Shown: one piece after another, positions 47,970-50,602 of the stretch
Numbering within the stretch: the stretch's first letter is position 1
How the letters are laid out: each line of letters starts with the position of its first letter
Source: Halorubrum saccharovorum DSM 1137
GTDB taxonomy: Archaea; Halobacteriota; Halobacteria; Halobacteriales; Haloferacaceae
Assembly: GCF_000337915.1 (NCBI RefSeq)
Contig: NZ_AOJE01000011.1
Coordinates: forward strand, 92,523-156,522
DNA length: 64,000 nt
Direction: 5' to 3'
The notes under the pieces: generated by a model
What the model was told of the DNA's origin: nothing
The model's database searches: none
The model's input: the letters and a program-made list of their open reading frames with translations, nothing else
Made by a program: the position numbers and the translations under genes

Positions 47970-48215
47970 ATGGTCGACATCCTCGCGGAGAACCTCTCCG
48001 GGAAGGCGGTGATGAGCGCGGACGGAACCGAACTCGGGGACCTCTACAACATCACGATGGACCTCAAGTCGGGCGAGCTCTCCGACCTCCTCGTGAGCCC
48101 CCACGAGCACCTCAGCCCGGAGCGCTCGGGCTTCGACATCGACGAGATGGGCCGTCTGAAAGTGCCGGTTGCGAACGTGCAGGCGGTGAAAGACTACATC
48201 GTCGTCGCCCGCTGA
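47970..48215 (+). CDS. PRC-barrel domain protein
   Basis: An 81-residue PRC-barrel: ILAENLSGKAVMSADGTELG, then DLYNITMDLKSGELSDLLVS. The archaeal family is small and often next to RNA or division genes. The ATG at 47970 is used. It overlaps nob1 by one base (TGATG), hinting at a role with ribosome maturation. Inference from position. Confidence 0.92.
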   Translation: MVDILAENLSGKAVMSADGTELGDLYNITMDLKSGELSDLLVSPHEHLSPERSGFDIDEMGRLKVPVANVQAVKDYIVVAR

Positions 48216-48673
48216 TGGAAGTCCTCGACACATCGGCGTTCATCCACGAGTACACCACCGACGACGACGTGGTCTCGGTGCCCGAAGTCCACGAAGAGCT
48301 CACCGGCGAGGGAGCGCTCCGCTTCGACGCGATGGAGGGTTCCGGGATGACGATCCACGTCCCGGCCCCGGAGGTCCTCGACAACGTGCGCCGCGCCGCA
48401 CGCGGCTCCGGGGACGCCGCGGAGCTGTCCGACACCGACACCCGCCTGATCGCCACCGCGTTGGAGCTGAGCGCGACGCTCGTCACCGACGACTACGCGA
48501 TGCAGAACGTCGCCGAGCGGCTCGATATCACGGTCGAAGCGATCGCGCGCGACGGGATCACCGAGGAGCGCGAGTGGAAGTTCCAGTGCGTCGGCTGCAA
48601 CCGCACCTTCGACGAGAACAAGGAGCGGTGTCCGATCTGCGGCAGCGACCTGACGCGGAAGAACCCGGCGTGA
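48215..48673 (+). CDS. nob1: Nob1 endonuclease (PIN domain, zinc ribbon)
   Basis: A 152-residue protein. The PIN nuclease domain has its first Asp in VLDTSAFIHE, more acidic residues in SDTDTRLIATA, and LVTDDYAMQN. The C-terminal zinc ribbon is CVGCNRTFDE followed by CPICGSDL. Nob1 trims the 3' end of 16S rRNA. Confidence 0.95.
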   Translation: MEVLDTSAFIHEYTTDDDVVSVPEVHEELTGEGALRFDAMEGSGMTIHVPAPEVLDNVRRAARGSGDAAELSDTDTRLIATALELSATLVTDDYAMQNVAERLDITVEAIARDGITEEREWKFQCVGCNRTFDENKERCPICGSDLTRKNPA

Positions 48674-48994
48674 GCGATTGAACGGGCGTCCCGCCGACGT
48701 CTGACAGCGATCGGACTGATCGGAGCCGAGAGCGGCCGAGTCGTTGCGTTCTGTCGTCCGTTCTGTCTGATATGTTTTAAAAGATCGGTAATATTTAAAT
48801 GTGACATACGCAACTGTAAGGGGGCGTTCGGCGTGGTCGGGACGGATGGACGGCACACGCCGACGCCCGCGACGCGTGCCGACGCCGCGTCGATACGCAC
48901 CGCGCGAGGTGAACCGTCCGAACGATCGCACACGAGGTGAACCGTCCGAACGAACGACTGCGCGGCCGTCGCTGCACACAGAGAGGACAAGACC
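48674..48994. other. 321-bp gap: promoter, leader and direct repeats before the tail-tube gene
   Basis: No gene is supported on either strand. An AT-rich TATA-like AATATTTAAA lies at 48790-48799. If it is used, the next gene would have a leader of about 170 bases, unusual in an organism with mainly leaderless mRNA. The 21-mer CGAGGTGAACCGTCCGAACGA minus one base is repeated: copies occupy 48905-48925 and 48933-48953, 28 bp apart. A regulatory RNA or attachment site is possible but not shown. Confidence 0.5.
48905..48953. repeat. Two 21-bp direct repeats, 28-bp period
   Basis: Identical copies begin at 48905 and 48933, starting CGAGGTGAACCGTCC. They sit in the region between the predicted TATA box and the tail-tube-like gene. 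Confidence 0.85.
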
Positions 48995-49567
48995 ATGCTA
49001 CCGACCATCGGACGGCGAACAGTGCTGCAAACGATCGGCGTCGCCGGTGCGCTGGGCCTCGCGTCCAGCGCGGCGGAGGCGGAGACGGAGGCGACCGCCG
49101 ACGCCGCCGCGCTGAGCCGACACGACGCGCTGCGGACCGACCGGTTCGAAGTCGAGTTCGACGGCGAGGCGGTGTCCGGCTGGCAGACCGTCACCATCCC
49201 GGGTCGCTCCACGGAACAGGATGAGTACCGCGAGGGCAACGACGCCGACTACGAGAAGAAGGTCTGGGGACAGACGACGTTCGACGACCTCGAGATGGAG
49301 CGGGGGATCCAGCGCGAGGACGTCAACCGCCTCTACGACTGGCACGAAGCGGTCAGAGCGGGGAAGGCCGACGAGGGGCGGAAGGAGATCGCGGTTAAAC
49401 TGCTCGACGGGCGAGGCGGGAATCCGGAGCCGCTCCTCGAGTGGCGGTTCGAGGGGGCCTGGATCAAGGAGTACAGCCCGCCTGAACTCGACGCGAGCGC
49501 CGACGGGGACATGGCGACCGAATCGGTCACGGTCGCGTTCGACAAGATGACCCGGAAAGAGGTCTGA
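48995..49567 (+). CDS. Phage tail-tube-like (T4 gp19 family) protein with a Tat signal
   Basis: A 190-residue protein. Residues 1-29 are a twin-arginine signal (GRRTVLQTIGVAGALG, Arg7-Arg8) with an AxA cleavage site after about residue 29. The mature part fits the T4 gp19/eCIS tube family: TDRFEVEFDGEAVSGWQTV, YREGNDADYEKKVWGQTTF, RLYDWHEAVRAGK, the W-rich RFEGAWIKEYSPPE and the end TESVTVAFDKM. Tube proteins normally assemble in the cytoplasm; a secretion signal is out of place. No sheath, baseplate or spike gene is near. Homology is judged by eye. Confidence 0.75.
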   Translation: MLPTIGRRTVLQTIGVAGALGLASSAAEAETEATADAAALSRHDALRTDRFEVEFDGEAVSGWQTVTIPGRSTEQDEYREGNDADYEKKVWGQTTFDDLEMERGIQREDVNRLYDWHEAVRAGKADEGRKEIAVKLLDGRGGNPEPLLEWRFEGAWIKEYSPPELDASADGDMATESVTVAFDKMTRKEV

Positions 49568-49618
49568 GCCCTCGTCCGGGGGGAGCGGCGCGCCGGTCTC
49601 GTCCGCGTCGCTCCGCGA

Positions 49619-50602
49619 TCAGTCAGTCGACGCCTCGTCCGCGTCGCTCCGTCGCGAGTCGGTCTCGATCTCGACCGCCCCCGGACCGCTGTCCTCGCCG
49701 GGGACGGCGTCCCGGAGCGCCCCGGCGTCGACGGCGGGCAGCCGGTCGCGGAGCCGCCCCGCGACGGCCCGGGCCTCCACGATCTCGACCTCGGCGACCG
49801 CCCGGACGAGCGCGACCGCCCGATCCGCTCTGTCCCGGCGCCACGACTCCTCGCGAGACTGATACGTGCGGATAGCGCGGAGGAACTCCACTTCGGAGAA
49901 CTCGGGCCAGTACGGCGCACAGAAGTAGACGGCCGCCTCGTTGCCGTTGGCGTGCCACGGCAGGAAGTTCGAGGTGCGCTCGTCGCCGCCGGTCCGGACG
50001 ATGAGGTCGACGTCGCGTACCGGGCGGTCGTACAGCCGGTCCTCGACGGTCCCGACGTCAACGTCGGCGGGGTCGAGGTCTCCCGCGTCGACGTCGCGAG
50101 CGATGGCCGTCGCCGCGTCGAGCAGCTCCGTCCGCCCGCCGTACGCCAGCGCGACGTTCAGCGTGAACCGGTCGTTGTCCGCGGTGCGACGCTCCGCGTA
50201 GTCCACCGCGTCGCGAACCCGCCCCGGGAGGCGGTCGATGTCGCCGATCGCGCGGACGCGGACCCCCTGATCGTGGACGCGGTCGGCGTCGGCGAACTCG
50301 CGGAGCTTGCCTTCCAACAGGTCGAACAGCGGCTCTAACTCCTCGTCCGGGCGCTCGAAGTTCTCGGTCGAGAAGGCGTACAGCGTCAGCTCCGCGACGC
50401 CCAGGTCCGCGCACCAGTCGAGCACGCGCTCGGTGGTGGCGGCCCCGGCTCGATGGCCGTCGGGCGCGTCGTCGCCATGCTCGCGGGCGTACCGCCGGTT
50501 CCCGTCCTGAATGATCGCGACGTGCGTCGGCACGTCTTCGATCTCGCGGCGGAGGTGCCGGCGGTACGCGCGTTCGGCGAGGTCGCGGAGGCGATCCAAC
50601 AT
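49619..50602 (-). CDS. uppS: Polyprenyl diphosphate synthase (cis-prenyltransferase)
   Basis: A 327-residue enzyme. The diphosphate-binding motif is IIQDGNRRYAREHG (Met is usual where Gln stands). STENFERP and the C-terminal RTGGDERTSNFLPW are hallmark regions. It makes the long lipid carrier for glycosylation (dolichol type). The final 50 residues are an extra acidic tail. Confidence 0.94.
   Translation of the reverse strand: MLDRLRDLAERAYRRHLRREIEDVPTHVAIIQDGNRRYAREHGDDAPDGHRAGAATTERVLDWCADLGVAELTLYAFSTENFERPDEELEPLFDLLEGKLREFADADRVHDQGVRVRAIGDIDRLPGRVRDAVDYAERRTADNDRFTLNVALAYGGRTELLDAATAIARDVDAGDLDPADVDVGTVEDRLYDRPVRDVDLIVRTGGDERTSNFLPWHANGNEAAVYFCAPYWPEFSEVEFLRAIRTYQSREESWRRDRADRAVALVRAVAEVEIVEARAVAGRLRDRLPAVDAGALRDAVPGEDSGPGAVEIETDSRRSDADEASTD

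Follow-up and report, generated by a model that had tools for sequence, protein, structure and literature searches.

A sheathless relative of the contractile injection system inner-tube protein Cis1 with a predicted twin-arginine signal in Halorubrum saccharovorum

The tube proteins of phage tails, contractile injection systems (CIS), and T6SS are known so far as machine parts. The tail-tube proteins gp19 of T4, Pvc1, Afp1, and All3324 work within a particle or cell that possesses a sheath and a baseplate, and none of them is known to be exported by Tat. Hcp, the T6SS protein, is also found outside cells. Stacking of tail-tube rings occurs chiefly via the loop between strands β2 and β3 and partly via the N-terminus; polymerization of Hcp requires the tail-tip complex, and some tube proteins self-polymerize, with high salt favoring polymerization of T5 pb6 (PMC8718954). 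Contact-dependent killing mediated by CIS is established among haloarchaea, where 41 of 350 genomes encode such a system and most lack one (PMC11566945). Lipobox rules have been described for the haloarchaeal Tat lipoproteins (PMC2945643). Our search of open-licence papers found no description of an exported or orphan Cis1.

The window (the whole stretch of DNA analyzed, 64,000 nucleotides from Halorubrum saccharovorum DSM 1137) carries on its forward strand, at 48995-49567, a gene for a Tat-signal-bearing orphan Cis1/gp19 protein of 190 residues, identified from the list of open reading frames, Pfam and NCBIfam matches, and a copy in a sister species. In a Pfam search, residues 50-186 (49142-49552, + strand) matched positions 4-134 of the 134 positions of PF06841 (Phage_T4_gp19) with an E-value of 1e-27 and a score of 97 bits, above the curated cut-off of 28.2, and the tail-tube subfamily model TIGR02241 also exceeded its cut-off (102.8 versus 62.4). 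The match to NF053769 ("CIS1 inner tube"; E 8e-35) gave 120.1 bits and did not reach the equivalog cut-off of 220, a value that also misses some sheath-adjacent Cis1 proteins, because their scores in the same analysis span 167-272. An AlphaFold2 prediction from the single sequence (pLDDT 38.5) was discarded, and its repetition with an alignment of 18 sequences yielded a pLDDT of 79.8 and a pTM of 0.71 for the mature part. The best Foldseek matches were CIS inner tubes (7b5h, 9qgl, 7adz, 6j0b, and AFP, with Anabaena, PVC, Algoriphagus, and AFP as the sources; best E 1.7e-9), followed by T4 gp19 and Hcp; by sequence, the nearest solved structures were the CIS tube proteins All3324 of Anabaena (E 1.7e-9) and 7adz of Algoriphagus (E 5.8e-9). 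Profile matches and predicted fold agree in assigning the protein to the Phage_T4_gp19/TIGR02241 tube family, as an earlier sequence-only reading of the locus had proposed, and the structure prediction that it had recommended against gp19 and Hcp returned a tube fold and not an unrelated one.

The mature part begins with RHDALRTDRF, which aligns with the (MPD)RHGPLRTxRF of ordinary Cis1, so the signal sits ahead of a complete tube protein. The HGP motif, invariant among the CIS Cis1 proteins compared, reads HDA in this protein and its sister copy. The segment EYREGNDADYEKKVW (residues 77-91; 49223-49267, + strand) corresponds by position to the β2-β3 inter-ring loop of tail-tube proteins and is intact here, and it is absent from a relative in another haloarchaeon (G030). 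Apart from signal and tube, the protein contains no domain, and no effector domain has been added.

Residues 1-29 (MLPTIGRRTVLQTIGVAGALGLASSAAEA; 48995-49081, + strand) form a predicted Tat signal peptide of the signal-peptidase-I type, separated from the tube domain by a short linker (residues 30-42; 49082-49120, + strand). All elements of the signal are intact (the motif G-R-R-T-V-L, an h-region without charged residues, and the AxA site), and the sister species keeps the RR pair and almost the entire signal; the sequence-only reading had likewise seen a full twin-arginine signal at this N-terminus. An approximate TatFind-type rule of our own making was satisfied by the protein, and also by 45 of 704 called genes (6.4%) versus 21 of 2,223 spurious ORFs (0.9%). 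The short NCBIfam model TAT_signal_seq did not match the protein at an E-value of 0.01, and the Tat call therefore rests on the motif and its conservation. The residues ASSAAEA stand where a lipobox would be, and the mature protein has no cysteine; we therefore predict that it is released and not anchored. On the basis of its RR motif, h-region, and cleavage site, the protein is a putative Tat substrate.

A start codon placed too far upstream could have created the appearance of a signal, and the sequence-only reading had named a downstream start in homologues as the observation that would undo its proposal. That objection fails for the closest homologue, which retains the signal, and for the gene itself, which offers no start near the MPDRHGP position where relatives begin; more distant homologues lack the signal because their proteins begin at the start of the tube domain. 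Within the signal, the only other start is GTG 49022. This was the choice of the gene caller and was not accepted, since the sister species has kept both the RR pair and the ATG leader. A misplaced start codon was rejected on the same conservation and the lack of a start at the junction.

The earlier remark that no sheath or baseplate genes lie nearby extends to the entire source genome (G000; 99.4% complete, 72 contigs), in which profile searches detected neither sheath (PF04984) nor Baseplate_J (PF04865) genes and only the one gp19 gene; a CIS encoded elsewhere in the genome was thus not found by these searches, and the check for further copies and eCIS genes suggested with that remark came back empty for these families. 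The same sheath and baseplate profiles do match in the CIS genomes G068, G164, G290, and G358. By its NF053769 score and the absence of sheath and baseplate genes, the protein does not classify as the working inner tube Cis1 of a CIS. The sequence-only interpretation is thus supported in part, for the tube family, the Tat signal, and the missing CIS machinery, whereas the surface tubes or the effector or adhesin role that it offered would be hypotheses.

These features bear directly on what the protein could assemble into. The intact stacking loop means that tube formation is still within its reach, and the protein might build real hollow tubes outside the cell, in the manner of a sheathless tail tube serving as a surface filament; the complete tube domain and the ability of some phage tube proteins to self-assemble, favored by high salt (PMC8718954), are consistent with this idea. 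We nevertheless consider surface tubes unlikely. The genome holds no Baseplate_J or sheath gene and no further tail gene adjoins, the HGP motif has changed to HDA, the segment for stacking is missing from the exported relative G030, and lipid anchors of the relatives G030 and G433 better suit a membrane-attached protein. Tube building is the weaker option because no baseplate gene that could nucleate it was detected, because of the HGP change, and because G030 lacks the ring-stacking segment; lacking such a nucleus, the protein would more probably yield small oligomers or single rings outside the membrane than long tubes.

The gene occupies the interval 48674-49618 between Nob1 (48215-48673, + strand) and uppS (49619-50602, - strand), and the surrounding genes are of the housekeeping type (aIF5B-like, PRC-barrel, Nob1, uppS, and HAD). 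Upstream lie a TATA-like sequence, AATATTTAAA (48790-48799, + strand), a candidate from sequence for a promoter of its own, and, in the leader, two direct copies of the 20-bp GAGGTGAACCGTCCGAACGA spaced 28 bp apart (48906-48953, + strand), of which the sister species has one. In the other close Halorubrum genomes examined, Nob1 and uppS adjoin with no gp19 gene between them. A separate observation at this site is that a different gene of 366 aa fills the Nob1-uppS interval in another Halorubrum lineage (L118:2056-3156). Origin as a prophage remnant or prophage tail gene was rejected because the neighbors are housekeeping genes and no phage genes lie nearby, and because there was no match in phage records and, with the protein or its alignment as query, none in viral contigs.

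Among the Halorubrum genomes searched, the gene is present in just two. The second copy, in a sister Halorubrum (G197, matching Halorubrum salipaludis L032), lies at the same site, includes the signal, and is 92% identical (L034, 9534-10112). The two genes differ by 16.5 nonsynonymous and 14.5 synonymous changes (dN/dS 0.35); the nonsynonymous changes fall below the neutral expectation (binomial p 0.003), which indicates purifying selection, and the sole length change is an in-frame difference of 6 bp at the start of the linker, with no frameshift. Elsewhere in the sister genome, one locus (L141:8004-11087) encodes a laminin-G lipoprotein-like gene and a protein that shares the N-terminal domain of the fiber-like P0002, along with glycosyltransferase-like genes. 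The empty site in other close species and the constraint between the two that carry the gene together make a single-gene insertion the most likely history, in which the gene entered the site as one gene and was retained. A near-neutral passenger, captured recently and of no real function, in which chance had placed a Tat signal ahead of a Cis1 gene, would also arrive as a single gene in only two sampled species, and the dN/dS of 0.35 exceeds the 0.06-0.15 of its neighbors. The significant purifying selection, the open frame, the retained signal, and the presence of exported or export-linked Cis1 orphans in other lineages argue against such a passenger, which we judge to be improbable.

A class-wide search found matches in 80 of 391 genomes, and later family-wide searches added more. 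Most close relatives directly adjoin a sheath gene, and sheath ORFs were present in 35 of the loci examined. The nearest CIS relative, 61-62% identical, is a Cis1 in another haloarchaeon (G484) that immediately follows a gene clearly encoding a sheath and has no signal. Several other relatives, described next, have no sheath close by. No sheath or Baseplate_J gene was detected in G000, G197, G030, G046, or G253. Two sheathless Cis1 relatives, G030 (MEPEVTRRDALQTLTVAGSTVALSGC) and G433 (MDQDITRRKAIQTLSVGGITVALSGC), combine a Tat signal with the lipobox LSGC and are predicted from these motifs to be Tat lipoproteins; the former lies between transposase genes and the latter alone near fibrillarin. 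In halophilic archaeon J07HX64 and G492, gp19 is fused behind CARDB-type repeats, and a related fiber-like gene adjoins. Two Natronosalvus gp19 copies without a signal are followed by a Peptidase_S74 fiber-like protein and by a small Tat protein, and giant PQQ-repeat proteins are encoded alongside. On the Natronosalvus amylolyticus plasmid NZ_CP101160.1 (L078:13992-21963), gp19, the Peptidase_S74 fiber-like protein, a small Gly-rich Tat protein, and a PQQ-repeat protein stand in a row, the last having 2,066 aa and a C-terminal hydrophobic segment. Four genomes (G462, G463, G464, and G493) contain a cassette that encodes a Tat lipoprotein of ∼93 aa, a gp19 protein, and a fusion of gp19 with DUF6517. 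The conserved arrangement is visible at L149:9265-11789, L150, L151, and L152, and the N-terminus of the fusion in L149-L151, HRRTMQASG.APFVG, resembles a degenerate Tat signal.

Two further arrangements were noted. Tandem gp19 pairs, consisting of a Cis1-like protein and a second paralogue, occur in housekeeping surroundings with no detectable sheath (L038:9978-10972, and also L056, L060, L142, and L143), on a branch that differs from that of the window gene. Lone divergent gp19 genes followed by a gene for a ∼135-aa protein are found in two Halorubrum genomes (L043:9326-10186 and L044:9768-10634); the ∼135-aa protein of L043 had no Pfam match.

In the final tree, the protein and its sister copy grouped with G433, J07HX64, G492, Natronosalvus, and the sheath-adjacent G484 (support 92/85), within a wider group that also includes G493 and G030 (86/82); the inner order was weakly supported, and the exported relatives lie on long branches. 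For the Tat-bearing copies, an AU test favored neither one gain of the signal nor several (p 0.48), and their monophyly was neither shown nor rejected. A second tree had suggested that all orphans form one clade; this was dropped when, after the addition of genomes, the sheath-adjacent Cis1 of G484 fell among the sheathless proteins. With that Cis1 inside the group, the exported or export-linked Cis1 proteins appear from their sequences to have originated near a CIS lineage, and the protein studied here belongs, by its placement, to a haloarchaeal group repeatedly tied to export.

The company that these relatives keep suggests two other roles. The links to fiber-like (Peptidase_S74), CARDB, and DUF6517 domains would suit an effector or adhesin that is secreted and attaches to other cells, with the tube fold supplying a rigid scaffold; the window protein, having only signal and tube, no adjoining partner gene, and no P0002-type fiber gene found in its genome, makes this role a doubtful one. 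Alternatively, an exported Cis1 homologue might act as a decoy or immunity factor that interferes with the incoming tubes of a rival haloarchaeon's T6SS-like CIS. Contact-dependent CIS killing occurs among haloarchaea (PMC11566945), which makes the decoy idea testable, the five genomes named above have no detectable sheath or Baseplate_J, and identity to CIS Cis1 reaches 62%. We saw no association with immunity genes, most haloarchaea have no CIS (it occurs in 41 of 350 genomes; PMC11566945), there is no evident way for a ring outside the cell to stop a fired tube, and the CARDB and DUF6517 fusions do not point to a decoy, which we regard as quite improbable.

The explanation that we prefer, at about even confidence, is that a CIS inner-tube protein became detached from its machine and was retargeted outside, where it is probably a small ring-forming surface module and not an injection tube. 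Its ancestor would have been a Cis1-type inner-tube protein of a haloarchaeal CIS; the machine would have been lost and the Tat signal gained. The signal would carry the tube domain, already folded, across the membrane, and cleavage by signal peptidase I would free the protein below, within, or outside the S-layer. Its most likely role at that site would be that of a small self-oligomerizing (ring-type) surface or matrix protein. The complete tube domain, the intact signal, the constraint between the two species, the lack of sheath and Baseplate_J genes, the ancestry near CIS Cis1, and the recurrent ties of relatives to export are results of computation; export itself, the oligomeric state, and the role at the surface are inferred. 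More tentatively, and with clearly less confidence, we suggest that haloarchaea have repeatedly made the CIS inner-tube protein an extracellular building block. Such gp19 ring modules, exported by Tat on their own, held by a lipid anchor, or joined to CARDB or DUF6517 domains, would make up a class of surface assemblies or tubes that has had no name so far. If this is true, a Tat-exported tube protein in several haloarchaeal lineages and architectures would show a weapon part turning into a surface protein, and would offer a simple system open to testing in haloarchaea that are amenable to genetics.

Compared with known systems, the protein most resembles Cis1 of the haloarchaeal T6SS-like CIS of Halogeometricum borinquense (PMC11566945), with which its tube domain aligns over the full length. 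It differs from that Cis1 in its added Tat signal, its altered HGP motif, insertions of three residues and of one residue, a deletion of two to three residues, and a genome that contains no sheath or Baseplate_J gene. With the tail-tube proteins gp19 (T4), Pvc1, Afp1, and All3324 it has in common the Pfam family and the predicted fold (Foldseek TM about 0.66-0.74). It also falls in the same fold class as T6SS Hcp (Foldseek E about 1e-5), although the Hcp family PF05638 matched with an E-value of only 0.12, and whereas Hcp exits via the T6SS, the window protein carries a Tat signal instead. The haloarchaeal Tat lipoproteins (PMC2945643) use the route predicted for it, and the relatives G030 and G433 possess the lipobox LSGC; the window protein differs from them in having no cysteine and in its predicted release from the cell.
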